DNA of 64,000 nt, taken from positions 62,001-126,000 of the forward strand of contig UBYA01000007.1 in NCBI GenBank assembly GCA_900469615.1, in the 5' to 3' direction. This document shows, in pieces, positions 30,308 to 60,978 of the stretch. Each line of letters begins with the position of its first letter. Position 1 is the stretch's first letter. The position numbers and the translations under genes were made by a program. Source of the DNA: Hyphomicrobiales bacterium (lineage in GTDB: Bacteria > Pseudomonadota > Alphaproteobacteria > Rhizobiales > Rhizobiaceae). The notes beneath the pieces are model-generated. The model worked only from the letters and a program-made list of their open reading frames with translations, did no database searches and was not told where the DNA came from.

Positions 30308-30382
30308 GCGCCCTTCGTCTATCGGTTAGGACGACAGATTTTCATTCTGTAAAGAGGGGTTCGACTCCCCTAGGGCGTGCCA
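30308..30382 (+). tRNA. tRNA-Glu (anticodon TTC)
   Basis: Identical over 75 bases to the tRNA at 29944, with its own promoter. A small hairpin (GCTTTGC-AAAA-GCAAAGC, 30412-30429) without a T-run lies between it and the converging recJ. Confidence 0.96.
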
Positions 30383-41871: not shown

Positions 41872-44526
41872 TTACCCTGCTGCGCCCGGAAGAAAGAGCA
41901 TTTCCGGCCAGGAAATCGGCCGCCGGAGCGTAGACGCATGAGAAAAGATGCTAGCGTCAAATGCCTGTTTAAGTTGGTCCATCATCACCTCAGCGCCATC
42001 AGTCGCTGACCCCGCACCAAGCGAACTTTTGACCGTGAGTGTGTTCATCACCTTTAAGAGTTCCCAATCTCTCAAGACTTCGATCTTCCCGTCCTTCTCC
42101 GTCACACCGAATATCAGCCTATGGACGAGCGAGCCGGTCCCGGTAACTTCGTCTTCAACAGCCAGGATCAGCACCGGACGGTCGAGCCCCTCGACCGAGG
42201 CGACTCGTGTTGGGATGTCTTGCGCATCGTCGAGGGCGATGTCGAACAGAGGATGGCCGATCCCTAGAACCCTAGAGGCAGCATTGGGGCCTCGGAGGCT
42301 GCGGTCGAAAACCAGTCCCTCGTACTTGTCCCGGAGCGCGTAGCTGCGCGCCTTCCAATCATCGGGGGTTCGGATCTCCAGACCATCATCCCGCCGGAAA
42401 ATCCGGCGCCCATGCCTGCCGACAGTTTGGATGAAGAACCGCTCTAGGTCGGGAAGGTCGACCTTCGGCAAGTCTCTTCCGACTTGCTGAAAATCAAACC
42501 TCGACACGGAGCCCAAAAGCTCGCGCACGGTTTCAACCACGTCACGCCCACCGAGAGTGGAGGTGGCACGATCGAACCAGCCTCCCAATCGCTCGCCAGA
42601 AAGCCCTTCGCTTCCTGAGAAAAGCTCGTTGAAGAGTGAGTTGCCAGCCATGCCTATGACCAACTGCGAAATATCCTCCTGTTCCTCCATCACCGAGGAG
42701 AGAGCGGCCTGAATGCGCTCCAGCTTCGCATTGAGCAAATCCCAGATGCGGGCCTCGACTGTCTGTGGGTTTCGCAAAATGTAGACCGAGACCGGCCGCG
42801 TCTGGCCATAGCGGGATAGACGCCCGACTCTCTGGTGGAGCCGCATCGGATTCCAGGGCATATCCGCGTGCACCAGCACGGCGCAGCGCTCTTGAAGGTC
42901 TATGCCCTCGCCGCCAGCCTCGGTGGACACAAGAAACCGCACTTTCCCCGCATTGAAGGCATCCGCAGCGTGCTCGCGAGACTGGCTGACAGTCTTTGCC
43001 GAGCCCGAGGCCTGCTCAATGCCATCCAGCCGTTCATCCCCGTTGATGAACGTAGCCGAACCAAACCCGAACCGGCGACACAACGCGTTGATGATAATGG
43101 CTTGGGTTGCCTTGTATTCCGTAAAGAGCAGGATCGGCTCGTCCGGGCCAAATTCCTCTCCTATCATCTGAAGCAGGCGCTCGATCTTGGTCTCTCGGAT
43201 AATAGCGTCGGCGAGAGCGATCAGTTCGTCGAGACGCTGTATCTCGTCCTCCATAAGCAAGACGGCAGCAGAACCGGGAAGCGCTTCTTCGGCTTCCGAC
43301 AAATCGTCAAAGGTCGCCTGCTCGTCATTAGGAAGTAGGACGGACTCATTTGAACGGCCAACGAGGTTCGCAAGCATCGTTCGACGTTTTCGGAGCGCAT
43401 TGCGGATCGCCGCGATCGAACTGGCAGCCAACTTCTGTAGCGTGATCAGCACGAGCATCCGTGCTGTCTGCGAACGCCCGTCAAGGGTCGCGGCATAGGC
43501 CCGGCCGTCGATGACGAACTCGCTTAACGTCCGATAGAACTGTGTTTCATCGTCGCTATATTGGTATTCCCGGTTGAAGACATTAACAGGCTTGAAGAGT
43601 TTCTGCCCGTGGAGATCGGTGACAGTCGCCTTGTTGTTTCGGACCATGACTTTGGAAAGCTGAGAGAGCTGTTCCAGCGGGTCACGCTCCGGGTCGAAGA
43701 GGTCCGGCCGCACGAGGCGCATCAAGCCGAAGAAGCCATAGTCCTTCCCGCGATGCGGAGTTCCGGTGAAAAACAGAAGGGAGTTGATCTTACCCCGCTC
43801 CTGAAGGTCGGAGACAAGACTGTATGCCAACGTCTCTCCGGCGCGTTCATCCACGCTAAGGTGGTGAGCCTCATCGACAATGATCAAATCCCAGGGATCG
43901 GCGTTGAGTAGCCTTTCCCGCGCGCCCCGACGGTCATCTCTCAGCGTATGGAAGGATGCTGCCACCATCGAAGCTGTCGCCCAGAAATCGCCGCGCACCG
44001 TATCTGCTTCCGTGACATAGCGTTGGAGTCGTATGTCGAACATATCCTTGAGGCGAAATTGCCACTGCGGGACGAGCTTTGCGGGCGCGAGGATCAGCAC
44101 CCGGCGCACGCGCCCGGATGCGATCAACGGCATGAGGACAAGGCCGCATTCGATCGTCTTGCCCAGCCCTACATCGTCAGCGACAAGCCAGCGGAATGGC
44201 CATTCCTGGGTTACTTTGCGGCAAACCCATAGCTGGTGCGGAAGCAACTGCACGCGCGAGCGGGAAAACACGCCCCACTGGTCATTGACCGATCTAATGG
44301 CAAGTGCCTGGGCACGGATCACCGCGTCAATGGGATCTGCGTTCGCACCTTTTCGGAGAGCCGAATAGGGAGAAGGTATCTCGGCAATTTCGCTTGTGAG
44401 AACCTGCTCAACAGTCCCGCCGAAACGGACGACGGCCGTGGCTCCCAAATCAACCACGACGCGTCCATTACCATGGCGAGGATGGTGTACGGGAACGCCT
44501 GCGGCCAACAGTCGTGCTTCAGTCAT
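41872..44526 (-). CDS. SNF2-family DEAH helicase/translocase (RapA/HepA-like)
   Basis: An 884-residue SF2 motor, last gene of the minus-strand operon. Walker A is D-D-V-G-L-G-K-T (Lys123), Walker B is V-D-E-A-H (Asp218-Glu219), motif III is FFTGTPHRGKDY, motif V is FLVSTEAGGEGIDLQ, and motif VI is QRVGRLSRYGQ (from Gln565). The N-terminal 45 residues (VPVHHPRHGNGRVVVDLGATAVVRFGG) form a small SH3/Tudor-like beta domain as in RapA-type proteins. The C-terminal 250 residues are unassigned. It resembles helicases of DISARM and other defence loci. Its start overlaps the giant GHKL gene's stop by four bases. Probably a dsDNA translocase. Confidence 0.9.
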   Translation of the reverse strand: MTEARLLAAGVPVHHPRHGNGRVVVDLGATAVVRFGGTVEQVLTSEIAEIPSPYSALRKGANADPIDAVIRAQALAIRSVNDQWGVFSRSRVQLLPHQLWVCRKVTQEWPFRWLVADDVGLGKTIECGLVLMPLIASGRVRRVLILAPAKLVPQWQFRLKDMFDIRLQRYVTEADTVRGDFWATASMVAASFHTLRDDRRGARERLLNADPWDLIIVDEAHHLSVDERAGETLAYSLVSDLQERGKINSLLFFTGTPHRGKDYGFFGLMRLVRPDLFDPERDPLEQLSQLSKVMVRNNKATVTDLHGQKLFKPVNVFNREYQYSDDETQFYRTLSEFVIDGRAYAATLDGRSQTARMLVLITLQKLAASSIAAIRNALRKRRTMLANLVGRSNESVLLPNDEQATFDDLSEAEEALPGSAAVLLMEDEIQRLDELIALADAIIRETKIERLLQMIGEEFGPDEPILLFTEYKATQAIIINALCRRFGFGSATFINGDERLDGIEQASGSAKTVSQSREHAADAFNAGKVRFLVSTEAGGEGIDLQERCAVLVHADMPWNPMRLHQRVGRLSRYGQTRPVSVYILRNPQTVEARIWDLLNAKLERIQAALSSVMEEQEDISQLVIGMAGNSLFNELFSGSEGLSGERLGGWFDRATSTLGGRDVVETVRELLGSVSRFDFQQVGRDLPKVDLPDLERFFIQTVGRHGRRIFRRDDGLEIRTPDDWKARSYALRDKYEGLVFDRSLRGPNAASRVLGIGHPLFDIALDDAQDIPTRVASVEGLDRPVLILAVEDEVTGTGSLVHRLIFGVTEKDGKIEVLRDWELLKVMNTLTVKSSLGAGSATDGAEVMMDQLKQAFDASIFSHASTLRRPISWPEMLFLPGAAG

Positions 44527-47500
44527 TCGCCATACCCCCCTAACTCGCCGTCGCTCTCCCGCTCATCGTCATCCGTGACGAGGTCTGGCGGAGCAGCGCC
44601 AACATCAGCAAAGCACGTTTCCAAATCATCCCGGTGTTTGTGCCGGGTAATCAATTGAAGCGGAAGATCGAAGTCACCATCAAACCGATGGTCGTCTCCC
44701 AGATGTCTCGTTACGAAATCACAGATCGTCCGACTAGCTTCCGTGTCCGGCCGCTCGCGAACCTCAGCGCCCAATTCATTCAACAGGACGCGGACACGCT
44801 TGGATGGAGCCCAAACATAAGGAATCATCAGATGCTCATCGCAAGACGCATAGGCACCGTGCCGCACCATTTCACGAATCATCCAGTTCATACCGATACC
44901 GAGAGAACGGTTAATAGGGGCAGCCTCGATGGAAAGACGCATGGCCGGTGGCCAGTAGCTCGGCTGCAAGGCGCCATTGAGAGAAATGACGCCATGCTCT
45001 TCGATAATTCTCGGTAGCTTGACCGTAACCTCGCGATACTCGTCCAACCAGCGGGCAATGGAATACAGATCGACGAATGTCCGTCGCCACATCAGATATT
45101 GCTGATCGAAATGATAGGGTGCGCTCCAGCGTTCTAGCCGTTCAAGCCATGAGTGCACCTCATCGGGCGGCCGCGACTCGGACAGTTCTTGCCACCAGCC
45201 TTCTCTGAAGCCGGCTTCGACAAAGCTCTTGTGTTGCTCGTCCTGCGCTCTGCCAAATGACTGAAAGCAGGCCAAGGCGAACATCGTAAACCATGCCGTG
45301 CGATCCTGTGACCCCCGAAGCTGCGACGGCGAGAAATCCCTTGGGTAGGCCCTCTCCACGTATGCGGCGCGGAGGCTAGAGCCCTCGGCGCGCCACCATG
45401 AGTGGATTGCCGTTAGAACCGTTGCAGGCTCAGGTGGGGGAGCCTGAATAGACATTGGCGACAAGAAGGCATCTCTGCCCTGGATGGCGTACAGGAGATC
45501 GTCCTTTTCCTTCTCCGTCCATCCGGAGAGCAGCGGGCTGATCCGCAACTGTGACGAAGGCCAAGGTAGCCAGCCGGGTCGCTGGCGGCCGATCTCATCA
45601 CCCAATTCCCGGCCTTGGCGCCCCTCAATGACGTATCGGAGCGCTGCCGCTTGCCGGTCTTGGTCGTCGTCCGGGATTTCCGCTGTCCAGCCCCGGAGAT
45701 CACGCGCTTGAGGGCCGAAGCCCGTTCGTTCGCGGGCGACTCGGAAAAACTCCAGTGCCGCGCCTGTGTATTGCCTGTCCAGCAGATGCTTCGCGGGCGC
45801 AAATGCGCACAACCTGAGCTCTTCGGGGTCCTCGGCGGCCTCGGGACTAGGAAGCTGGGCTATCCGCCAAGCCCCATCCTGTGCGAGGAACAATGCCTGC
45901 CTGGAAACGTCCAGAATTTCGTGAAGCTCGTTATCAAGCGGCGCTTCCCGAATAGATTGTGATGTAAGGGCAAGGCCGAGGGCTTTCGCCAAATCTGCAC
46001 TGACATGCTTGTCCTCGCCGATCTGCTGGCGGAGAAGGCTCGAAAAGCGAAGGGGGCGAATATTCCCGAAACCGAGCTTGCGCAATTGCCCAGCTATATC
46101 GGATGATACCGTTCGGTCTCGTAGCTCCGTGGTGGCCGGCCAATCCTGTACTTTGGCGAGCATGGAAAGATCCGATAACGCGCCATCAACGAAAAAGGCC
46201 GCTTGCGACGCCTTTATCAACTCAGCGAATGGAGGCGGCAGGAGGGTCGGCACGACCTGGCGCTGTTCTATGAGGTGGCCATATCCCCGACCATCGGCGT
46301 GCAGGTGCCGGGCGAGACCGTCGTCGAAATCCGGCGCGAGAACATCGAATAGGCGGGACCAGAAGGTGCTCCACGCCGCCGTTCTAGAAGTGTCCGAGCC
46401 ATCCAGGTCAAGGCTTTCCGCGAACCCGCGCCAGTCGGCGTCCGCGAGATCGTGCAATTTCAGAAGGCGGTCCCCTAATGTCCGTCCTAGTGTTCGGAAT
46501 CTCTCCGTCTGATCAACAATCGAGCCGGCCAGTCCTGTCCGTCCTGGATCGACAGCAAAAGGACCGTTGAGCAGCCAGCCAGAGCGAGACGGCACCTCAA
46601 GCGGGGCCAGGTTCCAGAGTCGATTTAGATCGTCGGGAAATCTAACTGGTCCGGCAGCGCCAATATGCAGTAGAAGGGCAAACCCGAACGACAGATCGAA
46701 CCGCAGGGCACGCTCGCGCCGTCCGCCTGACACGGAAATGACCCTGATCTGGCTCTCGCCGAGAAGCGGCAAAGACGTGCAATCTACGCTCGTGGGAACG
46801 TCGCCATCGATCTCGATGCGGCGAATGGTGCGGGCGAAGGCAGGTAACCACGTCACGGCGGATTTAAACGCCGCCATCGCATCAGCGCCTTTGTCAGTCG
46901 TATCTGCTAAAAGGGGAACTTCGATAACGGTCGCCTTTCGACCGCCTGCGGCCTTTCGTGCCTCCGCTATGTCGATGCCTTCCGGCCATGGCGTCGGCAA
47001 AAAGCCGCCGACCGTGCGTAAGGCGATGAAGCCGCTGGCGATGCCGATGCCGTCCGACAGCACATGGACGCTCTTGAAGCCCAAGCCAAACTTGCCGGTG
47101 AGATCGTCTCCGGGGCGTTTCTCGGAGAAATTCATCAGCAGCATATTGAGCAGGTCCCGGTCGTGGCCGGCGCGACGCCCCTCCTCCGCGTCATGCCCCA
47201 TGTGATTGATCGGGCGGCCCCAATGAACAACACGAAATCCACCTGGGCCGCCCGGTAGCTGCTCCACCCGGAAACAGGCGTCCGATGTAGTTTCACAATG
47301 CTGCCGATAGGCATCGTCGGCGTTCTGGAAAAGCTCGAAGAGAACCCGGCTGGCGGAATATCCGAAATCTCCAATCTTGGCACGAACTGCAGACAGAAGC
47401 TCGGCTGCCAGCGTGCTGTCGGATACTTTTTTCCATAGCTCCGCTTTCAGTTCTTCCATCTTCTGAGCCGATGCGGAAAGGTGATTGAGGTGGCTTTCCT

Positions 47501-50500
47501 CAGCTTGATATTCGCGTAGCGCCTTCTGTGTGAGGTAGTCAGTGGGGAGCTTCAACTCAGCGAGAATCGTTGGGAGCCGGTCCCGAAGCAACCGTTCAGT
47601 TTCCTCAATCGTCGATTGATCTACCTTAACCGCCCTGTCCAACACTTTCCGCAACGCCGCACGCTGGCTTTCCATGCCGAGCCACAGACAGTCCGCCGCG
47701 ACTGTCTCGACAAAGCGCCGGAAGATGCCGCTGGCTTCTTTCTGACCATATACGCTCGGATCGACGTCCCTGACTGGCAGCGTGATCAATGACCGCACTT
47801 TATTATCGGTGCCCCAGATGCGCTCATGGCTCTTGTGCAAATTCCCAACGAGAATTCCGTTCCCAGGAACACCCAACGGTGCGTCGAACACGTCCCCCGA
47901 CAGGGCCACCGCGTGCACATGCTCGCCCGCAACTAGCTCGATCAAGAAACGGCGTTGATCGACCTCGTCCGCCAACGCGTTCGGGTAGAGGATTTCTCTG
48001 GGAAAGTGATTGTCCAGGTCGGCCCAAAGGGTATCGACATCGGCGGTCGCGTCGATCACCCATTCGTTAGCCAGGTGCCGGAAAGCCTCGCTCCGGCCGA
48101 TCAGTCCGAGATAGACGATCACTAGGTCAGACGGTACGCGCCCCCGCCATGGGCCGAGGAACGACCGATGCTGGTCTGCCCACTGGGCGTCCAATGCGGC
48201 CAGGTCGACATTCCCGATCTCCCCCCGGCGATGATCGGTCGGAGACGAGTCATGAACTTCATATCCGGCGCCACGCCTCTCGACAGGTGATGCCTCACGC
48301 TTTCCAAGCGTGGATGCGTAGTCCCGCGCCAACACATAATTCGGATCGAGCCCGTCACCGCCTTGGACGACCTCCCGGCCGCTGCGCCAGTTTCCGGCCT
48401 CGGTAGGAACCAGCGTTCCGCCGAACACTCGACGGCGGCTTTCTTCCGGCCAACGCGTGACGATATTGAATCCGTGGCGATAGACCCTGCGGGCCGCCTC
48501 GCCTCTCCGCCCGTTTTCCTCCGCCAACGCCGCGAGGTAGTCGAGGTGGATTCCCGCCAAATCAGCGTCGGAGGACTGCATCTCCGCGAAAGCGGCGACA
48601 ACTTGCATCGTGTCGCCGCGATCAGTTTCCGAGGTCAGAACCGCCGCCAGCAGCGGCCAACCCGGCAACCCGACATCGCCTCCGTCTTTCGCCAAGATCG
48701 CGAAATCGTCTATTGGAAGGTCATCAGCCGTTCCAAGGCAACCGATGATCCCCCCATCATCGACCATCAGCGCCAGGGCCTCATATGACGAGCGCCTGTC
48801 CGGCAGAACCCATCTTATAAGCTGATCGAAGCCGCGATGCGCGCGCACGTCGATGGCCAGCCTTGCAGCGGGTAAAAACGGGGGCGTCTCTCCATTATTT
48901 AAGAGAAGTACTCGTGCCGCTTCATCGACCGCTGGTGGAAGTGCGAGGATATCCAGCGGCTTGACCGGGTGACCATCGGCAAAAAGCCAAGACCTGACGC
49001 GCAGTCTTTCAATTATGGGTCCATCGGGCGGAGATTGCAACCCGGCGAACGCGTCCAGTATCACGCCACGAAGGCTGTGTGGATCACTGCAACTAAGCGC
49101 AACATCAATCTGGCTTTCCGGCGACCATGCCCCAATAAGCTGTCCTTGCCGTTCCCGAGCCTTCTGGCTTTGGCATGGCCGGACGATAGAAACGACTGCC
49201 CGCAACGGTTCAGGCACAGGCCATTCTTTCGTTTCGCGAAAGATGCCCTTTCCAGCCCCAACTGTCCCGTCCTGCCTTTCATGGATAGGCAATAGGATCA
49301 GCAGATCATCGGGCAGTCCGGCCTCAAGGATGGCTTCCCGCTCTGATACATCAGGGCTGAGTTGCTCGATGGCGGCGATATGCTTCTCGAACAACGCTTC
49401 CAGATTGGTCGCGTCGAGCACCTCAATACGAAGATGGTTTCGTTGCGTCCTAGACAGCCCGTCAGCAATGCCGGTCGGGACAAGAAATTCGTTTTGGCTC
49501 CGGCTAATCAGAACCGTGGCAATCCGCTCTATCCGTTTTTGATTCGGATCGAGCGTCCAAAGTTTCGATACTGAGTATCCCGCTTCACGAATACCGACGC
49601 AGAGGCGCCTAGCGGCTGCTGGATCGTCTTTATTGTCGGCTCCAATCTCATCGAGTAGCCGTTGGCGGGCGTTCTCTGGGCCAAAGCTCATGGCTTTATT
49701 GATGAGCGAGAGAGCAGCCTCCTTGCCCGCCGACTGAAGTGCGAGCTTTGCTTCATCTCGAAGGAGTGGCGTCGCGCCGCTGTCCACGATCAGTGGGGAT
49801 ACGTCCGGTAATGCCTCCACGATCAAAGGCAGCCATGTGTTCGCCTGAGGCGAACTTACGAACAAGAGTCCGGCTCCGGCGCGTTCAACGAGCGTCTGGA
49901 GCGATAGCACAACTGGGCCCTGGACACGGACATCCCGCACCCGCAGAACCTTGATGGATGCGAAATCACGGTCACGCGCCAGTTCGGAGATATTCCGCTC
50001 GGCCTGAGCGAGCAGCGCCAACGCGGCGGTCGCTGCTTGATCCGCCTGATCGCCTTCAATCAGTGGCTCAAGTGCGGTGAGCAACGCCTTGAGATCGTTG
50101 TCGGATAGCCGTGGAGGGCGTCGCCCATCATCGAGCCATTCGCCGCGAACGGGCAGGATATTCGCAGGGGCAGACACCAGCGCGCGCAGGACCTGCCGGT
50201 TTTCGACAGATGGGGGAAGCGGGAACAACGCGCCATCTGGAACATGGGCAAGAACCAATTTAATAAGTTCGGACGGAGCGAGCGCCTGAGTTCCCGCCAT
50301 GGCCGCGCGCAAGGCCGCGACCATATGCGCCCCGATCGCGGAATACAGGGCATCGCCGAGCATCGCCATATCGAGGAAATCGACGAGAAGTCGCGCGAGA
50401 TCGCGCGCTTGGAATGCACGCGGCGAAAGTCCGGAAAATACCGTGCCGAGGTCTGCCCCGGTCCAGCGTATCGGCTGCGCACTCAGCGCCGCGCGGGGAT

Positions 50501-52034: not shown

Positions 52035-53343
52035 AGGCGTAGTCCACTTTCGGCTCTTCACTCAAGAGCAGCCGCCTGAGCCGCGTCAGTATATCGGTGC
52101 CGTTCGCCACGTCGATGCTCGCAGTCTCCAGGCTGGTTTGATGTCCCGTGATTCGATGACGCGCATGAACCAAATCTTCTGGGCCAAGGCCCATGTGATG
52201 GGGATAGAGCAACGTCAAGCGCGGAGCACGATAGAGCTGCGCGTACGCCATCATCTGATAGACGTCCGCTTGCGAAACCCCTTGCTTGGGGTCATCGATC
52301 CGAGAGGAAATTCGCTTCCACTTGGTGTCGATGACGTGGGTGATCGCGGTGCCTCGGCGAATCAGGATGTCGGGCTTGGTCTGGAAGAGCCCTCTCTCGC
52401 TATCCTGGGCGCTCAGGCAGAACAGGCGCCCGCCTTGCAACGAGACGGTGAGCCCGGTTCCCGCCAGTGCTCGAGCAATCAACCGCCCGACATACTCTTC
52501 GAACAGCGCGTTCATCTCGAAAAGCATCGCTGTGCCTTGACCTGCGCCACCCGTGGTCGTCTGATAGCGGTCCTGCAAAAATAGTCGGGCCATAGCGAAG
52601 AGGTCCTGCCATGACCGATTGGTGCGATCGATGACAACCTCATCCCAGCGCAACCCTGAAAGCGGCACATCGACGATGTCGGCATAGACGAAGGCCAACT
52701 CGCGCAGGCGTTGCTGGTTGGCACTGCGCCGCGAGACGCGAAGAAGGCGAAGCACCGCCGCCTTCATGATCCGGTTCAGCGCGATGTCTTCGGACAACAG
52801 ATCGAACCGACAGGCAAGGCGCGAGGGGTTGATCGCATGGTGAGTGAACTGGCGGGTAATATCGAGCTGGCCACGCAAGTTAGGCAAGTCCTCCTCGTGA
52901 TCGATATATCGGCGCGGCATCCCCTTGCGCAGGGCCGCGGTCAGCTTTTCGCAAAATATGCGGATCAGGATTTCGAGAAGTGTCTCGCGCTGCCAGGCAA
53001 GATCAGTGATGACGCCCAAGTCAATCTTGAGATCAAACGCGACAGCCAGCATATGGACCAAGCGTTTACGGATCGCTGCGTTCTGATGATCGGGCGTTTC
53101 ACCGGGCACCACGTCGATCTTTGGCAGTATCTCCAGGCTTGCATCGCCTGCGGCAAGAATCCCGACCACACCACGAGCGCGTAGGGCCTGCCGACCATGT
53201 TCGAGCACCCCGCTCCCGCCGCGGCCAGCAAAGACCGAACGCGCCGCTAGACCCGCCAGCCGGTCGGCATGGTGGACCGGGATCTGCCCCTCGCCGTCCC
53301 CGTAGGCGAGCTTGTCCCATTCTCGAACCGTATAGGCGGGCAT
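52027..53343 (-). CDS. mcrC: McrC-type endonuclease subunit
   Basis: Nuclease partner of McrB, 438 residues. The McrC N-terminal region includes GRQALRARGVVGILAAGDASLEILPKID. The central helical part has RRYIDHEEDLPNLRGQLDITRQF, the R-G-x-L/I segment typical of McrC, and FEMNALFEEYVG. The PD-(D/E)xK core reads K-P-D325-I-L-I and I-D339-T-K341, so the catalytic residues are intact. Its ATG overlaps the mcrB stop (one shared base, ATGA arrangement), and its 3' end overlaps the giant GHKL gene. Confidence 0.92.
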   Translation of the reverse strand: MPAYTVREWDKLAYGDGEGQIPVHHADRLAGLAARSVFAGRGGSGVLEHGRQALRARGVVGILAAGDASLEILPKIDVVPGETPDHQNAAIRKRLVHMLAVAFDLKIDLGVITDLAWQRETLLEILIRIFCEKLTAALRKGMPRRYIDHEEDLPNLRGQLDITRQFTHHAINPSRLACRFDLLSEDIALNRIMKAAVLRLLRVSRRSANQQRLRELAFVYADIVDVPLSGLRWDEVVIDRTNRSWQDLFAMARLFLQDRYQTTTGGAGQGTAMLFEMNALFEEYVGRLIARALAGTGLTVSLQGGRLFCLSAQDSERGLFQTKPDILIRRGTAITHVIDTKWKRISSRIDDPKQGVSQADVYQMMAYAQLYRAPRLTLLYPHHMGLGPEDLVHARHRITGHQTSLETASIDVANGTDILTRLRRLLLSEEPKVDYAYA

Positions 53344-56300
53344 CAGGCTGCGAAATCCGAGAAGTCGAAACTGGCCTTAACACTCCAGCGCCACTTGTCC
53401 CCGCCCAGTTCCTCGTCGACGAAGCCGGCCGGTGCCTTTAGCCTTTTTGCTTCGAGGAAATGGGCGCCGTTGGCACCGTTGGTACTATCGTTATCGCCGA
53501 GTACAGCAGCGACTTTCGACCAATCCTCATAGAAATACTCCGCCAGAAGCGGGATTATCTTGTGGCGCATGACGTCCTCAACATCAGCCCGGTTGCGGCA
53601 GCCGGTGAAATAAGCGTGGCCGATCTGGTGTTCGCGATCGAAGAGAAATTCGATCCGCTCGTTGAGCGTGTGCAGCAGCTTGCACAGATTGATCCCATCG
53701 AAATTTTCGGCGTTAAGCTGCCTTGCCGTTAGCGCCCGGCGCAGTTTCTCCACGTCCGGCATCAGCTCGCAGAAGGTGAAGCGGCGGCGCAAGGCGGTAT
53801 CGAGCAGCGCAATCGAGCGATCCGCCGTATTCATTGTGCCGATAATGTGAAGGTTGGCCGGCACACCGAAGCTGGTACCGGAATAGGGCAGCCGAACCCT
53901 AACCTCGTTTTCGCAGCCGAGCCGCTTGTCGACTTCGAGCAACGTGATCAGCTCGCCGAAGACCTTGGATATATTGGCTCTGTTGATCTCGTCGATGATC
54001 AGGACATGCGGTCGCGCTCCCGCTACTGGGCGCTCGGCATTGGGGTCGATTACCACGGCTTCAAGCGCATCCCAGTCGATCCGGTCTGGATCGAGCCTAT
54101 AGGCCGCCTGGCGGCGAAAATTCCGTGCGTAGAAAGGCCCGCGCTCGGCACCATTGTCATCGCGCCATATCCATTCGACTCGACGCCGATGCGGGTGGAC
54201 CGCTGCATCAGCATCGAAATAATACTCGCCGCTCACACGGCCAAATGCGCGATAGCTGTCGCGGCCATCAGAGATGACAACATAGTCACCTACCTGTAGG
54301 CCGGACCGGAAAGCGTAAAGCATCTCGATGTTGGGGTCCTTGCCGGATGCGTCAGGGTCCTTCTGGTCGTTCCACGCCTTCCGAATTTCCTCGAAATCGT
54401 CGAAGCGCTCGTCGGACCAGTCAATGTCACCACCCCAGCCTAGATGGATCAGCCCGCCATCGAGGCCTTCGCGGATCCGATCTTCCTGACTGCCGCGCTG
54501 GCCGAGAGCGATCTTATAAATTGCGCGCGAGCGGTCGAGCCGCTTGGCCGGCGCATCGCCGGTGTCGAGACGCGCTCTCTCGCTGATGATCTTGAAAACG
54601 CCTGCATGGGGCTTGAGACTGAAGCCACCCGAAGTGCTGGCGACCTCGTCATCACCTTCCTGTTCCAAACTGGTCGTTGGCCGCAGCCCCTCGACGAAAT
54701 CCTCGTAAGAAAAGGACTGATGGAAGGTAACGAACTCGATCCGGCCTTCGCTGGCGAGACGGCGATATTCCATCATCACGGCATCGCGGTTTTCGCGAAG
54801 TGGATCGGCCACCACATCGCCCAAACAGAGCCGCACCGCTTCCCAAGCGGTGGCATAGGTCTTGCCGGTTCCCGGCGGTCCGTAAAGGATGAGATTGGTG
54901 GCAGCGGGCATAGCTGTGGCGGGTGCAATCGTCATGGTCGGGTGCCCTTTTGCCGAGGCGAGCTGATACGTGAAAACGGTGGAACTGCTGGGATTGGGCA
55001 AGGTGTTCGTCGGCGGTGGGACCTGAGCGAGTTGCTGGAATTTCTCGCTCCCGAGCGCGCTACAGATGGCTGGATGCCGGTCGAGCAGTCCCATGTCGCG
55101 GCCGAGATCCCCGGCGCGGATCGCAACCTCGCTGGCGCCCTTCTCACGGGCAGGTTCGACATAATAGTTGCGTGCGCATAGCCGGATGCGGTCGGCATCG
55201 CCGATCAGATGCGCGTACCGCTCTGGCGGCGTGACCGGCGCATCATCGCTATCGACGATGATATAGCCGGCATTGTGGAGTTGGGCGGCGGCATCGGCCT
55301 TCTGTCCCCACCCCCCATTAAGCTGTGTCTTGTCGCGCAGGAACCCAACAATCGGCTTGGACGGGTAAATCCGGCTGGGCCGGTCACGTGTCGAACGGAC
55401 CCAATAGTCACGCGGCTCGCCAAATACATCGAAAATAGAGCTATGCGCCTTCGACTGGCGGTAGCTGTCGTAGGCATCCATCGCCGTCTCGACGGCTTCG
55501 CGCGAAAAGGCCGCCAGGTCCTCGTCCTTATAGTTATGGACGATCCAAAGTGCCCCTTGCACATCTATCATGTCACGCGGTGCCAGGCCTCGATCAGCGA
55601 AAGCGCTTCGAACCGCCTTCATGAAACGCCGTTCGTCGCGATAGGTGTCAGCCATAGACGGATGATCAGGAAACCGGCGACCGACCGCTTCTCGCCAGAG
55701 GTCCTGACGCACGGAGTGGCGGATATAAATGCCATCTTCGGGGGAGAGATGCAGGAACAGGAATTCGGCTATCTGGCGTGCCGGGTCTGGCTTACCGTCT
55801 GGAACCGCTGCGATCCATGCCTGGACGAAAACCTCCAGGGCAGCCGCGTGGCCGTCTGGCGTACCGAGCGCGGCGTCGACCAGCGTTCGCAACGCTGGCC
55901 AGAGCTTTTCGCGATCAGCGTCACCTTTCGACGACATCGGCCAATAGGCGCGCCAATCCAGCAGATTGCTTTTGACGAGTGCGGCGTTGACCGCGTCAGC
56001 CAGCGCCTGATCGGAATCGGCCTGTGTGATCGCGGCCTTCAGCTCGGCTGCGATTTGCAGCTTGTAGGTCCGTTCCGCCTCGTCAAATAGCGGGTCGGGT
56101 CGATCGAAGCGGTCGAGCGCGGGAAAGAAATGACGCAACTGTTCGATCCAGCGCGTGACCGCTGCCGGATTGAGCACCAGTTCATCGTCGGACCGCAACA
56201 GCACGCCGATAAGCCGACTCAAAGACTCAGCGTTGTCTATCCGCACGACAAAGCAGTCAGCATCGCCAAAGGACCAGTCGCGGCTAAGGGCAGAATGCCG

Positions 56301-56582
56301 CCCGCCATCCTTAATACCGCTTTGATAGGGGCGCACTTCGGTGGCAAAGCCGTTGGCTTCAACCAGATCGCGCCACTTCACATCAAGAAAGACATTAGCC
56401 GGACTCTGAATTTCCCACAGCAGACGCTCGCCTGCTCCAAATTCAAAGGATGCCATTTTCTTGGTGACGCCTTCGCCGGGGCGCAGCCCCGAACCTCGAA
56501 GCACATCGAAAAGCGCCCGTCGCAGGGCTATGGGGCGTTCCTGCTCATTTTCATCGAGGCGCGCCTCAAAATTCGTCCACAT
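53343..56582 (-). CDS. mcrB: McrB-type AAA+ GTPase with inserted EVE/PUA-like domain
   Basis: A 1079-residue motor of a McrBC-type restriction system. Walker A G-P-P-G-T-G-K-T spans 568-575. Walker B is L-I-I-D864-E865-I-N-R, and the McrB-specific guanine-recognition motif N-T-A-D is at 918-921 (GTMNTADRS). Between Walker A and B, roughly residues 640-800, lies an extra segment: GGLIHLGWGGDIDW, then LQVGDYVVISDGRDSYRAFGRVSGEYYF and HRRRVEWIW. This resembles the EVE/PUA-like readers of modified bases. The first 500 residues are a large unrecognised region, replacing the usual DUF3578 reader. ATG at 56582 follows the helicase stop with zero gap. Confidence 0.9.
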   Translation of the reverse strand: MWTNFEARLDENEQERPIALRRALFDVLRGSGLRPGEGVTKKMASFEFGAGERLLWEIQSPANVFLDVKWRDLVEANGFATEVRPYQSGIKDGGRHSALSRDWSFGDADCFVVRIDNAESLSRLIGVLLRSDDELVLNPAAVTRWIEQLRHFFPALDRFDRPDPLFDEAERTYKLQIAAELKAAITQADSDQALADAVNAALVKSNLLDWRAYWPMSSKGDADREKLWPALRTLVDAALGTPDGHAAALEVFVQAWIAAVPDGKPDPARQIAEFLFLHLSPEDGIYIRHSVRQDLWREAVGRRFPDHPSMADTYRDERRFMKAVRSAFADRGLAPRDMIDVQGALWIVHNYKDEDLAAFSREAVETAMDAYDSYRQSKAHSSIFDVFGEPRDYWVRSTRDRPSRIYPSKPIVGFLRDKTQLNGGWGQKADAAAQLHNAGYIIVDSDDAPVTPPERYAHLIGDADRIRLCARNYYVEPAREKGASEVAIRAGDLGRDMGLLDRHPAICSALGSEKFQQLAQVPPPTNTLPNPSSSTVFTYQLASAKGHPTMTIAPATAMPAATNLILYGPPGTGKTYATAWEAVRLCLGDVVADPLRENRDAVMMEYRRLASEGRIEFVTFHQSFSYEDFVEGLRPTTSLEQEGDDEVASTSGGFSLKPHAGVFKIISERARLDTGDAPAKRLDRSRAIYKIALGQRGSQEDRIREGLDGGLIHLGWGGDIDWSDERFDDFEEIRKAWNDQKDPDASGKDPNIEMLYAFRSGLQVGDYVVISDGRDSYRAFGRVSGEYYFDADAAVHPHRRRVEWIWRDDNGAERGPFYARNFRRQAAYRLDPDRIDWDALEAVVIDPNAERPVAGARPHVLIIDEINRANISKVFGELITLLEVDKRLGCENEVRVRLPYSGTSFGVPANLHIIGTMNTADRSIALLDTALRRRFTFCELMPDVEKLRRALTARQLNAENFDGINLCKLLHTLNERIEFLFDREHQIGHAYFTGCRNRADVEDVMRHKIIPLLAEYFYEDWSKVAAVLGDNDSTNGANGAHFLEAKRLKAPAGFVDEELGGDKWRWSVKASFDFSDFAA

Positions 56583-59500
56583 TCAAAGAACTCCAAACTC
56601 GGGCAATGCGCACAGGGTATTGACGAGGCGCATTTGTTCGACAGTGTCGCATTTGGCTTCGCGCAGCCGAGGTGAGCCGAACACGAGCGCCAGGCCTTTG
56701 GCCCGCGAGACGGCGACGTTGATTCGGTTGAGCGAAAACAGGAAATCCATGCCGCGGGGCGTTTCCTCGACCGTCGACGCGGTCATGGAAACTAGGCAGA
56801 CTGGCGCCTCCTGCCCCTGAAACTTGTCCACCGTCCCGACACGGATAGCGGCGGGCAAGGCATCCTGTAGGGCGTTGACCTGAGCATTGTAAGGCGCGAC
56901 GACGATGATGTCGGCCGGACATACGGGGCGCGTTGTCCCATCTTTGTCGGTCCAAGTTCCCCTCAGCAGATCTGTGATCGTCGCCTTAATGGCAGCGACT
57001 TCCTCAGCCGCGACCTGGGCGTTGCCCTCATGCGTGACCGGTACCCAGAAAGCGCCGGCCTCGGGACCGCCTGTCCCGCCTATAGCTTGGACGGCAGTAT
57101 CAGGAGCGCTGGTGAGCCGGCCTTCATAGACCTGCCGCGATATGAACGCGCAGACATCGGGATGCATCCGGCGCGAAGCCGGCAGGAAAATGCCGCGATC
57201 GGGCGGGATCGTGGCATGATCGCCCAGCATCCATTCCAGGCAAGACAGGTTTGCCGGATAAGGATGCGCACCCTGGATAACCTGCGGCAATTGACGCGGA
57301 TCGCCGACCAGCACGATGTTGCGCGCACACCGACCCATAGCGACCATATTGGCCAGCCCAACCTGCCCGGCCTCATCGACGAACAGCCAATCGAGCGCCT
57401 GCTCCTGTTCGGGGCGGGCAAAGAAGAAGGCCGTGCCGCCCACCACATGGGCGCGGTGCCATATAGGATCGTCATTGGCGGTGGAGCGGATGACATCGAT
57501 AAAATCGTCGGAATAGCCGTCCTCGCCGCTCCCGACCTTATGAGCGATGCACAGGCCACGGACAGGGTCGCCATCGTCCTGCGCCGCGACGCATCCCATC
57601 AGCACATTGCGGATGGCCTCATGACTGTTCGAAGTAACACCAACGCGGTAGCCCTGGCGCACCAGCGACAAGATTGCCCGTGCGGTGACATAGGTCTTGC
57701 CGGTTCCCGGTGGCCCCTGGATCGGCAGCACAGTGCCGTCCATGGCTGCAATTGCCGCGATCGTTCCCGGTAGCGGATCAGCGCCATTCAGTAGATCCGA
57801 GCGAGCGCCTGTCACAAGACGCGGGGCGGCGCGCGCCAGAAGATCATCGATCGCTGTCAGGCGGCGGGCACCGCATTGATCCTCGATCACGTCATGTAAC
57901 GCCGCGGCAATGACGTCCGTATTCAACGGCCAGTCGGGATGCAACGTCAGACGGTCAGCCAAAAAATGGGCTTTACGGGGACCGACCTTGAGCGTGACGA
58001 TCCGCGTGGTTCGATCCAGTTCCTCAATGCTAACACTGGCCGGTGGCCCATCGAGGACCGGGACAGTTGCACTTCGACCTGCACGCAGCTTGGTTTCCTG
58101 CTGCGGAAAGCGATAGCGACGCATCGTCGAGCGTTTGACCGGTTCTGCGGGGTCGATGGCTTCGAGACCCGCCAACGCATCGAGATCGTCGATCAGGTCA
58201 TCCTCGTCCTTGCCTGCGCTGTCAAAAACCGCCCATTGCGCCGGCTTGGCTTCGCGTTTGTGAAACTGGCCGAGATTGAACAACATGTCCTGTCGGTCTG
58301 GTGGCAGGTCGGTCGCAGCGAGCTTCGCGCGCAGAGCCTGCGTTTCGGCGTCTTCCTCGACCTCCTTATCGCCGGCATCCATGGTCAGAACCGGCCACGG
58401 CGCAGCAGGCCGGATGCTGACCAGCCAGTCGCGCAACTCCTCTGTCGAGAGACAATCGATGCGGTTGTAGTCCTCGATCTCATCGAGAATCTGCTGTTCG
58501 CCCGTTTCACGCCAGTGCTCATAAGCCACGACCGATCCGCCCGCCGTTTTCACCTCCCCATCGCGTTCGCGCCCATAGAAAGCTTCCATCGACTTGATAG
58601 AGTAGTTGGCTTCCGAGCCGATGAGCGCGCCGCGCACCACGGCAAAAAGATCGACAAAGCGCCGCTCACGGAGCAGGCGGTCTAAGAAGGCCTCTCCGAT
58701 CCCGTACTTGGCGGTCAGTCGCCGCAAGGCGGTGATCTCGTAGGACGCATAGTGATAGATGCGCGCTTGGGGAAAAGCGCTGAGCCTGTCCCGAAAGAAA
58801 TCCAGCAACTTGGACAAGGCCATGGCCTCTGCGGCATGGTCATGCGCCCAGAAGGTATTGAACTGACCTTCGACCCAGACGCCGTGCAGATATTCAAGTC
58901 CGCCTTGGTAATGTGGATCGCCCTCAATATCGTAGAATATGTCGCCCGGCTGCGGCTCAGGCAGCAGATCGAAACCCTTGCCAGGCTCGCGCAATCGCAG
59001 CTCGAAAGCGGGCGCCCCGGTCTTGCGGGCATGTTGCAGACGGGCCTGAGTCACCAGGCGCGCCCGTGTGTTTTCAGCCATGCCGCGGATCGGATGATCC
59101 AGTTCTGCCAGCGCTTCCATCGTTGCAATGCCGGATGTCTCGAGTTTTTTGACCTGACTGCGGCTGATATTGGCAACGTTGAACAGGCTGTCCTCTGCCT
59201 TCCAAATGTTGTCGCAATGATCGCCCCAGCGGCAGAGTCCGCAATCGGCACAGGGAATCGGCCTGGTCGGGATCGGGTTGCTCAGAAAGGCCTCAAGCCG
59301 CTGGCGCGCCATTCGCGCATAGGCTTGATAGTCGGCGAGCCGCAACTGCGCCCTAGTCCCATCTCCGAGTTCGACATGGGCATATTCGGGGGCGACACCC
59401 TGAATCTCGGCCAAGAGGTCCGAGTAAAGCACCAGTTGCAGTACATGTTTGGGATGGGGACGCCGCTTGAGTTTGGTGTCGGTGACTTCATAGCTGAAGG

Positions 59501-59876
59501 GGCCAAGCTCCGAGGGGCGCTCGACGCGCTCGAGAAAATCCGACCAGCCACCCCAATTCTCGCCGAGCAGCGCTCCCTGGAAAACGATCTGTGGTCCTCC
59601 CGCCAGTGCGACACGCGTCGCCTCCGCGTTTTCGGCAATGTCAGACCGAGCGATCTCGACAACAGAAACGCCCGAAGCCTTCAGCCTAGCCAGATGGGCA
59701 GCCTCATGGGCATCGCCCTGTTTCTGGAGCAGAACTGCGTCATCGCTGTCATCGCGGGGCACAGGGCCTTTGCCCTGCATAAATGCGAGATCGAGCGCAG
59801 TCGCATGGGTACACCCCATGAACCGCATCAGATCTGATGCGGACAACAGTATCCGGCCTCCGTCTCTAATTCGCAT
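56583..59876 (-). CDS. TM0106-type nuclease fused to SF1 (UPF1-like) helicase
   Basis: First gene of the operon, 1097 residues. A RecB/Cas4-like nuclease occupies about 1-225, with T-D133-T-K135 and a four-cysteine cluster C209-C212-C215-C221 (likely Fe-S). An RNase H-like domain follows at about 310-480: FYDIEGDP (Asp316, Glu318), IYHYASYE and YNRIDCLSTEE. The C-terminal half is a superfamily 1 helicase: GPPGTGKT at 721-728, VDEAG at 833-837, GDPRQLPQV, GTVDKFQGQE and NVAVSRAK. I chose ATG 59876 because AAGGGGA precedes it; the frame continues to 60008 but would overlap the divergent gene. Zero gap to mcrB. Confidence 0.9.
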   Translation of the reverse strand: MRIRDGGRILLSASDLMRFMGCTHATALDLAFMQGKGPVPRDDSDDAVLLQKQGDAHEAAHLARLKASGVSVVEIARSDIAENAEATRVALAGGPQIVFQGALLGENWGGWSDFLERVERPSELGPFSYEVTDTKLKRRPHPKHVLQLVLYSDLLAEIQGVAPEYAHVELGDGTRAQLRLADYQAYARMARQRLEAFLSNPIPTRPIPCADCGLCRWGDHCDNIWKAEDSLFNVANISRSQVKKLETSGIATMEALAELDHPIRGMAENTRARLVTQARLQHARKTGAPAFELRLREPGKGFDLLPEPQPGDIFYDIEGDPHYQGGLEYLHGVWVEGQFNTFWAHDHAAEAMALSKLLDFFRDRLSAFPQARIYHYASYEITALRRLTAKYGIGEAFLDRLLRERRFVDLFAVVRGALIGSEANYSIKSMEAFYGRERDGEVKTAGGSVVAYEHWRETGEQQILDEIEDYNRIDCLSTEELRDWLVSIRPAAPWPVLTMDAGDKEVEEDAETQALRAKLAATDLPPDRQDMLFNLGQFHKREAKPAQWAVFDSAGKDEDDLIDDLDALAGLEAIDPAEPVKRSTMRRYRFPQQETKLRAGRSATVPVLDGPPASVSIEELDRTTRIVTLKVGPRKAHFLADRLTLHPDWPLNTDVIAAALHDVIEDQCGARRLTAIDDLLARAAPRLVTGARSDLLNGADPLPGTIAAIAAMDGTVLPIQGPPGTGKTYVTARAILSLVRQGYRVGVTSNSHEAIRNVLMGCVAAQDDGDPVRGLCIAHKVGSGEDGYSDDFIDVIRSTANDDPIWHRAHVVGGTAFFFARPEQEQALDWLFVDEAGQVGLANMVAMGRCARNIVLVGDPRQLPQVIQGAHPYPANLSCLEWMLGDHATIPPDRGIFLPASRRMHPDVCAFISRQVYEGRLTSAPDTAVQAIGGTGGPEAGAFWVPVTHEGNAQVAAEEVAAIKATITDLLRGTWTDKDGTTRPVCPADIIVVAPYNAQVNALQDALPAAIRVGTVDKFQGQEAPVCLVSMTASTVEETPRGMDFLFSLNRINVAVSRAKGLALVFGSPRLREAKCDTVEQMRLVNTLCALPEFGVL

Positions 59877-59994: not shown

Positions 59995-60978
59995 ATGTCG
60001 TTTGCCAAGGCTCAGGACCTGGTCAGGCTGGCGCGGTTGGCTGCCACACGGCGGACCGGAATTTCCCTCGATGAGATCTGTGAAGAATTCGGTGTCTCCC
60101 ACCGCACGGCGCAACGCATGACCGACGCGCTGGAAACTATCTTTACCAACGTCGACGCGCTGGACGGCCCGGACCGTCGGCGGCGGTGGCGCGTCGCCGA
60201 CCCTAAGCTCGAACGACTCCAGCCCCGTCTGGAGACGGCGGTCGAGGCGTTGGAGATCGCCGGTAGAACGGCGCGAAGCGATGGTCGCCTGCGCCACGCC
60301 GCTGCGCTCGATGACCTACGCGACGGACTTCTGGCCCGTCTGACGCCGCGAGACGCCCGTCGCACAGAAGCCGATGTCGAAGCTGTCCTTTTGGCGATGG
60401 GATCCGTCACCCGCCCAGGCCCGAGGGTTAATCTGGCACCGGCGGTACTGGACGCGGTGATCGAGGGACTACGCGGCCCGTTCCGCTTGCGGCTACGCTA
60501 CAGAAGCGAGGACTCACCCGAACGGATCATCGAGCCGCATGGTCTTCTGCTGGGGCATCGCAGCTATTTGGTGGCGCGTCAGCCGGCGCGCGGTGAAGAC
60601 ATACTGAACTTCCGCATGGACCAGATCCTGAGCGCCCAGACCCTGGATGAGAGCTTCACCCTGAAGCCCGGCTTTTCGCTGGAGGAATATGCAGCCCAGT
60701 CCTTCGGCGTTTACCAAGATCCCGCGCAATATGACGAGGTCATTTGGCGTTTCTCACCCCATGCGGCAGCGCGGGCGGCCGAGTTTTGCTTTCACCCGCG
60801 ACAGGTTGCGGAAATGCAGGAAGATGGTGGTCTGATCGTGCGCTTTCATGCAGCCGGCTGGCTTGAGATGGCTTGGCACCTCTATCAATGGGGCGATGCG
60901 GTGGAAGTCATTGCGCCCGAGGGATTGCGTACCTTGGTTGAAAACCACCGCAGGAGCGATTTCGACTCTCTGCCATGA
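59995..60978 (+). CDS. WYL-domain transcriptional regulator
   Basis: A 327-residue regulator of the DeoR/PafBC type often paired with defence systems. The N-terminal winged helix is VRLARLAATRRTGISLDEICEEFGVSHRTAQRMTDALE. The WYL domain runs from about 160 to 235 (PFRLRLRYRSEDSPERIIEPHGLLLGHRSYLVARQPARGED), where the W-Y-L core reads S-Y-L, and a C-terminal WCX-like extension follows. It is divergent from the five-gene operon across a short spacer with repeated elements. It overlaps the HEPN gene by four bases (ATGA). Likely a ligand-sensing repressor of the locus. Confidence 0.9.
   Translation: MSFAKAQDLVRLARLAATRRTGISLDEICEEFGVSHRTAQRMTDALETIFTNVDALDGPDRRRRWRVADPKLERLQPRLETAVEALEIAGRTARSDGRLRHAAALDDLRDGLLARLTPRDARRTEADVEAVLLAMGSVTRPGPRVNLAPAVLDAVIEGLRGPFRLRLRYRSEDSPERIIEPHGLLLGHRSYLVARQPARGEDILNFRMDQILSAQTLDESFTLKPGFSLEEYAAQSFGVYQDPAQYDEVIWRFSPHAAARAAEFCFHPRQVAEMQEDGGLIVRFHAAGWLEMAWHLYQWGDAVEVIAPEGLRTLVENHRRSDFDSLP

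Follow-up and report, generated by a model that had tools for sequence, protein, structure and literature searches.

How do five minus-strand genes that follow one another almost without spacers, and that recall parts of several unrelated defence systems, work together? They lie in a window of 64,000 nucleotides (the whole stretch of DNA that we analysed) from a Hyphomicrobiales bacterium. A preliminary description of this DNA, made from its sequence alone, took their tight coupling to mean one multi-protein machine.

Genes of the operon and their surroundings

The features on which our analysis rests are the following.

56583..59876, minus strand: head gene, predicted nuclease-RNase H-helicase, 1097 aa from ATG (TIGR03491, PF13482, PF13087/13086)
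53343..56582, minus strand: McrB GTPase, its Walker A and Walker B motifs separated by a long insert, 1079 aa (AAA_5)
53997..54677, minus strand: predicted EVE/YTH-like insert of McrB, residues 636-862 (AlphaFold2 model, Foldseek and VIA matches, exchange between alleles)
52027..53343, minus strand: McrC, PD-(D/E)xK nuclease subunit, 438 aa (PF10117, 239 bits; KPDILI...IDTKWK)
44523..52034, minus strand: sacsin-type giant, double GHKL ATPase, 2503 aa from ATG (PF25794/NF047352)
41872..44526, minus strand: RapA/DrmD/BrxH-like SNF2 ATPase, 884 aa (SNF2-rel/Helicase_C; GLGKT, DEAH, QRVGR)
59995..60978, plus strand: WYL/WCX regulator, divergent from the head (PF25583, PF13280)
60975..61670, plus strand: HEPN-motif protein in line with the WYL gene (RNQLVH at residue 177)
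40086..41327, plus strand: tyrosine integrase (PF00589)

From the head to the SNF2 gene, the junctions consist of 0 bases between genes and then overlaps of 1, 8 and 4 bases. The frames and junctions confirm the five genes as first described, Pfam, NCBIfam and motifs uphold the domain calls, and catalytic motifs are seen in all five proteins. A profile scan of the five also agrees with the description in finding no methyltransferase. The head has a longer TTG frame from 60008, of which our ATG start is Met45, and nine aligned homologues, taken with their annotated starts, begin at this methionine; the GHKL gene has an alternative GTG start at 52061 that gives 2512 aa. With McrB taken without its exchanged insert, dN/dS is 0.09–0.20 against a Novosphingobium copy and 0.08–0.22 against an Aureimonas copy, and such low values indicate purifying selection rather than chance frames. 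The locus is thus, as proposed, a composite of real defence-type genes.

Judged by its sequence, the head is a TM0106-type RecB-like nuclease joined to an RNase H-like domain and a Dna2/UPF1-like SF1 helicase: it scores 269 bits with TIGR03491 (cut-off 97), carries RNase_H_2 and AAA_11/12, and its helicase part matches PDB profiles of SMUBP-2, UPF1 and DNA2. Alignment of its homologues reveals conserved motifs, including invariant cysteines that are presumably of the Fe-S type, by analogy with Cas4/AddB/Dna2. Of 89 related heads, 79 have a WYL relative no more than 3 kb upstream, divergent in 77 of these cases, and two papers describe the regulation of defence systems by WYL proteins (PMC9122588, PMC9122601). 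The neighbouring protein contains an HEPN motif, given as Rx4-6H in the portion consulted of PMC3710099. It had no match in a Pfam scan, but its homologues include genes next to WYL that carry a HEPN annotation; its relatives occur within 4 kb in 46 of the 79 loci with room for them.

McrB and McrC have the features of canonical McrBC, namely an AAA+ domain with Walker A (GPPGTGKT at 568), Walker B (about 861–865, IIDEINR at about 862) and an NxxD motif (NTAD at 918), and a PD-(D/E)xK nuclease in McrC. A search for solved structures related in sequence to the McrB insert returned none up to E = 1. An AlphaFold2 model of residues 632–866 (mean pLDDT 79; 134 of 235 residues at or above 90) matched YTH domains and MJECL36/PH1033 in Foldseek, and the same together with VcaM4I in VIA (Z about 9–10), so that the insert inside the AAA+ domain is assigned, by modelled fold, to the YTH/EVE-like modified-base readers. 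The insert is exchanged between McrB alleles. A model of residues 1–548 (mean pLDDT 83, pTM 0.60) had no Foldseek match at E <= 0.001, and its middling VIA matches, of residues 14–130 to the T4 MotA C-terminal domain (Z 7.5) and of about 140–351 to 8-oxoguanine glycosylases (Z 7.3), were discarded.

For the giant protein, Pfam, NCBIfam and PDB return sacsin (SACS/P_loop_sacsin domains; sacsin structures 5v44–5v47) and not HATPase_c_3. Its first module has N-, G1- and G2-box motifs at about residues 41–114, and a second set lies at about residues 1576–1663 of the 2512-aa frame. The nearest solved relative of the SNF2 protein is RapA.

Further along the contig are genes for ArdC, ParB, ParA, a relaxase, TraG, TrbB, TrbE and TrbL. 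The operon is therefore cargo in a stretch with the genes of an integrative conjugative element, to which the integrase probably belongs. The preliminary description overlooked this element, as well as the divergent WYL regulator and the HEPN-motif gene.

Three units within the operon

That description proposed looking for the five-gene order elsewhere, and we found it in two further genomes, Novosphingobium and Aureimonas. Their proteins are 85–95% identical to those of the window, except for the Aureimonas McrB, which is 72% identical overall and 76–86% by segment outside the exchanged insert. Between the window and Aureimonas, dS is 0.86–0.92 for the head, McrB (outside the insert) and McrC and only 0.36 for GHKL and 0.44 for SNF2, with bootstrap intervals apart from those of head-McrBC. 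The two halves split likewise between Novosphingobium and Aureimonas, and this difference points to a separate history of GHKL-SNF2. Between the window and Novosphingobium, dS is slightly uneven as well (McrC 0.47, SNF2 0.28, intervals apart).

The GHKL gene is also found without McrBC. Among 15 giant-GHKL loci, an uneven sample in which most head-linked loci were found via the head, McrBC lies between head and GHKL in 3 and not in 12, and of the 13 that can be read downstream of GHKL, 11 have SNF2 next to it; this is largely the outcome, GHKL and helicase genes mainly apart from mcrBC, that the preliminary description had named as refuting its proposal. A plasmid search with the GHKL query matched seven records, the seventh being a near-duplicate of one of the six contexts examined, and McrBC was adjacent in none of the six. 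Two Deinococcus plasmids and one Trichormus plasmid carry GHKL-SNF2 with no head on the same record. Among 397 genomes drawn from the order, two, our own counted, carry full-length relatives of GHKL, alongside 13 weaker domain-level matches; a draw of 385 genomes of the class gave, our own aside, a 543-residue N-terminal GHKL stretch where a contig ends, together with two weak matches, numbers too small for statistics. McrBC can likewise stand apart, as a McrB 77% identical to that of the window, with its own McrC, lies about 23 kb from a head on a Sphingobium plasmid.

The cassette differs among the 89 related heads. McrBC stands alone behind 38 of them (36 in the tree, as the McrBC loci L049 and L106 were left out of tree and gap counts), and other heads precede GHKL-NO VEIN, Mre11/Rad50-like pairs, GHKL-SNF2, Z1/HATPase, YprA (a YprA/MZB-type helicase in L079 and L083), ubiquitin-like and further kinds. 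Head plus GHKL-SNF2 accounts for five loci, including L044, so labelled though its contig ends inside GHKL, and L051, in which GHKL is broken; L046, L062 and L098 end behind the head and carry no cassette label. Of 254 genome loci we used the best 80, a choice biased to close relatives. In several loci, e.g. L018, L069, L083 and L096, further genes follow the labelled cassette.

An obligate complex of all five proteins, as first suggested, would fit their translational coupling, their joint purifying selection and the fact that Novosphingobium and Aureimonas repeat the gene order. It is nonetheless improbable, given how common the subsets are (head with McrBC, head with GHKL-SNF2, GHKL-SNF2 alone on plasmids) and that head-McrBC and GHKL-SNF2 differ in dS. 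The operon resolves instead into three units: the head with its divergent WYL gene, often accompanied by the HEPN gene; McrBC; and GHKL with SNF2.

Cassette exchange behind a constant head

On the head tree, cassettes change at least 37 times among 85 labelled rows, compared with 42–49 times in 200 shuffles, and a single clade is rejected for both GHKL-bearing and McrBC-bearing heads (p-AU about 1e-53 each). In ten pairs of near relatives with unlike cassettes, which are not independent since several head-locus rows are near-identical, head DNA is 86–95% identical and the identity ends 13–40 bases before the stop; in three of these pairs homology returns past the cassette at 90–95%. The operon is thus built of modules that can be exchanged while the head stays constant, and here two of them, McrBC and GHKL-SNF2, are stacked.

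Alternatively, head and cassettes would share no mechanism: the WYL-head unit could be a self-sufficient defence gene, and the cassettes independent systems at a landing site that borrow its promoter. Plain recombination beside a conserved gene could produce the exchange, and homology past the cassette in three pairs is expected of recombination between conserved flanks; moreover, the cassettes are of unrelated kinds, both GHKL-SNF2 and McrBC also occur apart from heads, and distant heads are often alone. We nevertheless regard this explanation as rather unlikely, because the next frame usually runs in the same direction as the head and lies close to it. In 82 of the 84 loci with sequence, a co-directional frame begins no more than 450 bases behind the head. 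The gap is at most 30 bases in 69 of 82 loci, compared with 89 of 176 other adjacent co-directional pairs from the same loci, and head and frame abut with a gap of 0 in 23 of 82 compared with 2 of 176, under one nearest-start rule that pulls both sets towards 0; the –4 overlap, by contrast, is only weakly enriched (14/82 vs 20/176). Most of the partners scanned are DNA-handling ATPases or nucleases, which also speaks against unconnected arrivals, as does the rarity of heads without a recognisable cassette in the close subfamily (5 of 85 labelled rows, or 6 counting L059).

Even genome draws, with L153 left out of the count, gave a different picture for distant heads. Of 18 heads below 1100 bits, most had no recognised cassette and 14 had nothing matching the query families, the other four having McrBC upstream, a distant relative of a 1512-aa family, an abutting 536-aa frame, and an upstream McrB-like frame of opposite orientation; above 1100 bits, two of eight (L159, L160) had none. 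The cassette pattern therefore belongs to the close subfamily.

Named systems and a possible shared mechanism

No single system's PADLOC or NCBIfam profiles cover all five proteins, in line with the initial impression that the arrangement matches no named system. A literature search of limited coverage, judged partly by titles, found no paper on it, and within this coverage TM0106 was named only in two papers, both on corrosion by their titles. Domain-level matches link PADLOC profiles MkoA/MkoC to the helicase part of the head and TmtA to the GHKL domain. We take these codes to denote Mokosh and Tiamat, whose resemblance to our proteins goes no further than those domains.

DISARM is defined by the DrmA/DrmB helicase pair, DrmC and a methylase. 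The DrmD profile PDLC02634 covers nearly the whole SNF2 protein (849 bits, residues 10–829), and two plasmid relatives have DISARM-type genes near GHKL-SNF2 on the opposite strand: DrmA, DrmC, a DUF1998 protein and a cytosine methylase are annotated in Trichormus, and a DUF1998 protein and a helicase in Synechocystis. A DISARM relative acting on DNA entry is nevertheless disfavoured as very improbable, since the NCBIfam DrmD score of 266.8 is below the cut-off of 610 and neither DrmA, DrmB, DrmC nor a methylase was found among the five proteins and 20 Pfam-scanned neighbours, on which we reject membership. DISARM and ARMADA, like the window operon, have a BrxHII/RapA/DrmD-like SNF2 helicase; a DISARM-like cassette is reported to adjoin canonical McrBC often, and ARMADA combines a YprA-like helicase with a PglX-like methylase (PMC12458937). 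ARMADA is rejected too, as the same five and 20 proteins had no MZB/DUF1998 or PglX match.

Excerpts on type IV McrBC with EVE/YTH-McrB, in which EVE-McrB is reported from nearly 300 genera, describe the NxxD GTPase, PD-DxK McrC and modified-base-reader fold also seen here (PMC7641849, PMC11090510). In contrast to the operons of these excerpts, the window places the reader between Walker A and B, where it is exchanged between alleles, and adds to McrBC a TM0106 nuclease-helicase at the start of the operon and GHKL-SNF2 at its end. CoCoNuT types II and III, as presented in part of PMC11090510, likewise join McrBC relatives to a UPF1-like SF1 helicase, CnuH, but their McrB has NxD where that of the window has NTAD, which rules out membership, and the window helicase, unlike CnuH, carries RecB-like nuclease and RNase H domains. 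MORC/paraMORC restriction operons, in the text seen of PMC2292703, combine a GHKL ATPase with an SF2 helicase (SWI2/SNF2 included) and a nuclease, as here, where GHKL and SNF2 overlap by four bases, and DNA looping by GHKL is proposed for them; our GHKL protein differs in being a sacsin-type giant with two modules, and neither sacsin nor McrB is mentioned in the searched portion of that text. Shield, from the available part of PMC10270631, also adds different components to one core protein, but this core is a membrane RmuC-domain protein and three of four subtypes have additional components, whereas our core is a nuclease-helicase with at least ten cassette kinds. The RmuC-domain core ShdA is absent among the five proteins, so Shield is ruled out.

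We lean slightly towards a view of this modular stack in which the cassettes would be recognition or lesion-making machines and the head their shared DNA-degrading enzyme. McrB would bind modified bases through its EVE/YTH-like insert and translocate on GTP, after which McrC would cut. The GHKL protein may work on DNA as an ATP-gated clamp or remodeller, with the SNF2 translocase loading or moving it, and could mark phage DNA that McrBC has missed or open it up. Unwinding and digestion from exposed ends or flaps would then fall to the Dna2-like head, in the way that long-range resection comes after a first cut, and Mre11/Rad50-kind partners, present behind the head in seven loci, fit such a role. 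WYL would silence the unit until infection or DNA damage, with the HEPN protein as a possible fallback RNase.

More tentatively, and with somewhat less confidence than even odds, the locus could be one form of a general immune chassis, in which a WYL-switched Dna2-like head destroys DNA for at least ten unrelated, freely swapped sensor cassettes and the EVE/YTH reader is swapped inside McrB as a second level; the window operon might then be its double-cassette form. Exchange of the McrB insert would provide type IV restriction with an evolvable specificity module, comparable to HsdS target-recognition domains. The locus also places a bacterial sacsin relative in a concrete genetic context. If the head is a shared effector, McrBC, GHKL, Mre11/Rad50-like and ubiquitin-like modules would have one execution step in common, and near-isogenic natural loci that differ in cassette (L041/L042/L045; L030/L031/L037) are a ready experiment on sensor-effector coupling. 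Swappable partners of this kind suggest a general-purpose means of re-arming against viruses.

Operon genes, regulator and probable carrier element

The preliminary description placed five minus-strand genes in the operon at 41872-59876, and we found the same coordinates and junctions again; profile searches also concur with its domain assignments for all five proteins, each of which carries catalytic motifs on inspection of its sequence. It overlooked the WYL and HEPN genes included below and the mobile element around the operon.

Features of the operon and its flanks
59876-56583, minus: head, a TM0106-type nuclease, RNase H-like and SF1 helicase protein (TIGR03491, RNase_H_2, AAA_11 and AAA_12 profiles)
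56582-53343, minus: McrB (AAA_5 profile)
53343-52027, minus: McrC (McrBC profile)
52034-44523, minus: GHKL, a giant sacsin-type protein (SACS profile)
44526-41872, minus: SNF2, a RapA/DrmD-like ATPase (SNF2-rel and Helicase_C profiles)
59995-60978, plus: WYL/WCX regulator, divergent from the head
60975-61670, plus: HEPN-type protein with an RNQLVH motif, in line behind the WYL gene
40086-41327, plus: tyrosine integrase, next to radC

By sequence, the solved relatives are SMUBP-2, UPF1 and DNA2 for the head helicase, sacsin for GHKL and RapA for SNF2. The protein at 60975-61670 is homologous to WYL-adjacent genes annotated HEPN in other records. Among 89 related loci, a WYL relative lies within 3 kb upstream of the head in 79 (divergent in 77), and a HEPN gene is near the head in 46 of the 79 loci with room.

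The operon sits between the integrase and AbiE/transfer genes. Farther along the contig, in the window and beyond it (L107, L108), stand an AbiE toxin-antitoxin (AbiEi/AbiEii), ArdC, ParB, ParA, a relaxase, TraG, TrbB, TrbE and TrbL, so that the region appears to be an integrative conjugative element by its genes. An 8-kb stretch of Niveispirillum cyanobacteriorum (NZ_CP025613.1, 515960-524116) resembles this element at both its integrase and its AbiE/ArdC ends (16% query cover, three pieces); because both ends match within 8 kb, the element type seems to occur there with other or no cargo. No close McrC was found in the 36 same-genus genomes searched, three of which have only 28-30% identical ones. 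Three tRNA-Glu genes lie in a row at window positions 29944-30382.

Cassettes behind related heads

The head is constant and the genes directly behind it, its cassette, are variable. On plasmid records with heads 53-86% identical, the head is followed by McrBC, an Mre11/Rad50-like pair, multiubiquitin/ThiF/DUF6527, DUF4357 plus DUF3883-GHKL, or a near-empty stretch. A genome-contig scan with a head alignment found 254 relatives, of which the best 80 were taken as loci; nine plasmid loci were added to these. Cassettes, named from Pfam scans of representatives and from sequence clusters, were labelled in 87 of these 89 loci and the window.

Cassettes behind the head
McrBC: 36 labelled loci, plus the two unlabelled loci (later search)
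McrBC+GHKL/SNF2: 3 (window, L027, L102)
McrBC+c9/SNF2b: 2
GHKL/SNF2: 5
GHKL-NO VEIN + giant GHKL: 1
GHKL-NO VEIN: 14
Mre11/Rad50-like: 7
1512-aa family: 3
Z1/HATPase/DUF4420: 2
Ubiquitin-like; c9/SNF2b; AAA_5+DUF2357; sigma70+SF2; YprA/MZB; UvrD: 1 each
Without a defence-type gene: 1 (L059)
Nothing clear: 5
Cut off: 3

A protein of ~109 aa recurs between head and cassette (L020, L031, L034, L037, L045, L054, L056, L060); it is DUF4357 in both members scanned with Pfam (L020, L045), the start of some McrBs (L040, L043, L071) resembles it, and it is a candidate docking adaptor. The ~1500-aa family lies behind the head in L045, L052, L065 and the distant L156, and had no Pfam match in the one member scanned (L045). 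Multiubiquitin/ThiF E1/DUF6527 genes adjoin the head on either side: they follow it in L023 (Rhizobium) and precede it, with an E2, in L134 (Phenylobacterium). Some copies appear broken, the head of L063 being called in two frames and the giant GHKL of L051 in three; copies elsewhere are intact. Heads 73-76% identical to that of the window, as in alphaproteobacterial records, occur in records titled for other phyla (L047, Oceanobacillus; L071, Nocardioides; L090, a Kaiparowitsia MAG), through either contamination, mislabelling or wide transfer.

In even genome draws, heads at E <= 1e-100 were present in 24 of 397 genomes of the order and 9 of 385 of the class (own genome counted in each). Twenty-seven of these head places were retrieved and 26 classified (all but L153); four of the 26 (L143, L144, L145, L158) apparently repeat loci of the 80-locus scan, as their contigs have the same lengths. 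Eight heads scored >1100 bits against the window head, with McrBC behind four (L144, L146, L147, L158), GHKL-NO VEIN behind two (L143, L145) and no recognised cassette at two (L159, L160). Among the 18 heads below 1100 bits, L151 has McrBC upstream, and L156 has a protein distantly related to the 1512-aa family. In L149 the head abuts a 536-aa frame (unscanned), and in L165 a McrB-like frame lies upstream on the opposite strand; the neighbourhoods of the other 14 had no match to the query cassette families. The plug-in pattern is thus a property of a close, mostly alphaproteobacterial subfamily. Distant parallels are McrC-McrB before the head in Acaryochloris, TrlF after it in Vibrio tubiashii and ubiquitin-like genes before it in Phenylobacterium; no such neighbour was seen behind distant plasmid heads of Roseomonas, Novosphingobium resinovorum, Caballeronia, Pseudomonas luteola and Rhodococcus.

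Exchange of cassettes, modules and McrB inserts

The head tree requires at least 37 cassette-label changes among 85 labelled rows, compared with 42-49 (mean 46.6) in 200 shuffles, so labels are only slightly more clustered than random. A single clade was rejected for GHKL-bearing heads and likewise for McrBC-bearing heads, both groups having been named after the tree was seen. In ten near-relative pairs with unlike cassettes (L030/L031, L030/L037, L035/L037, L042/L041, L042/L045, L041/L045, L092/L088, L087/L055, L056/L055, L079/L085), DNA is 86-95% identical through the head, in most including the WYL stretch, and similarity stops 13-40 bases before the head stop; in the first three pairs, homology returns past the cassette at 90-95%. 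In 82 of the 84 loci with sequence, a co-directional frame begins no more than 450 bases behind the head. The gap to this frame is at most 30 bases in 69/82 (control 89/176), exactly 0 in 23/82 (control 2/176) and -4 in 14/82 (control 20/176).

The five genes recur in identical order in Novosphingobium naphthalenivorans (L027/L126/L127) and Aureimonas flava (L102/L128), where the SNF2 behind GHKL is 95% and 89% identical to that of the window, respectively. Between window and Novosphingobium, dS is 0.28-0.47 across the five genes, with McrC highest (0.47, its interval above that of SNF2). Between window and Aureimonas, dS is 0.86 for the head, 0.92 for McrB outside its insert and 0.87 for McrC, against 0.36 for GHKL and 0.44 for SNF2 (bootstrap intervals apart); between Novosphingobium and Aureimonas it is 0.56-0.71 for the head-McrBC part against 0.26-0.33 for GHKL-SNF2 (intervals apart). 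By these lower values, the GHKL-SNF2 module has moved or recombined separately from the head-McrBC part. In L028 a related head-McrBC stands without GHKL-SNF2, its DNA similarity to the window stopping ~120 bases before the McrC stop, and GHKL-SNF2 stands directly behind the head in L041, L047, L051 and L064. The module also occurs without a head on the same record (two Deinococcus plasmids, one Trichormus plasmid) and behind RecD2-like genes with a head ~12 kb away (Sphingomonas changnyeongensis plasmid). In L024, GHKL follows a WYL gene at the end of a contig, and a head is on a different contig of the genome.

In McrB, ~290 residues separate Walker A (568-575) from Walker B (~861-865). A model of residues 632-866, confident from about its residue 50 to 210, matches the archaeal EVE-like PH1033 and MJECL36, YTH domains (several m6A-bound) and the restriction enzyme VcaM4I, with Foldseek E values from 1.5e-4 and VIA Z scores up to 10.3 (114 residues, 2.6 A). 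Fusions of EVE with McrB are in themselves already known (PMC7641849). The insert is <45% identical in 107 of the 209 McrB pairs that are >=75% identical in residues 351-630 and 866-1079, and its type changes at least 10 times on a 41-row tree of the remaining McrB (shuffles 12-20, mean 17.2). The window insert is 94-98% identical to those of L027, L029, L030, L035 and L042, while McrB elsewhere is 79-93%; the Aureimonas and L028 inserts are of a different type, 30% identical.

Novelty and proposed function

Every module belongs to a known kind, and the five-gene arrangement had no match in the profile libraries or literature searches used. The sections consulted of PMC12458937 and PMC11090510 refer to a DISARM-like cassette next to McrBC, and PMC11090510 defers some McrBC associations to a later paper, so a prior description of the arrangement is possible.

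Our data demonstrate the operon's structure, selection on it, its mobile gene content and modularity, and the exchange of readers. We favour a degradation step shared by the cassettes, because the Dna2-like enzyme has beside it partners of kinds that produce or bind DNA ends; the alternative that the stretch behind the head is an independent hot spot is the less probable reading, at a level that we still take seriously. With a shared degradation step, the cassettes would locate foreign DNA or cut it, and its degradation would fall to the head; the WYL regulator may keep the unit silent and the HEPN protein may serve as a fallback.
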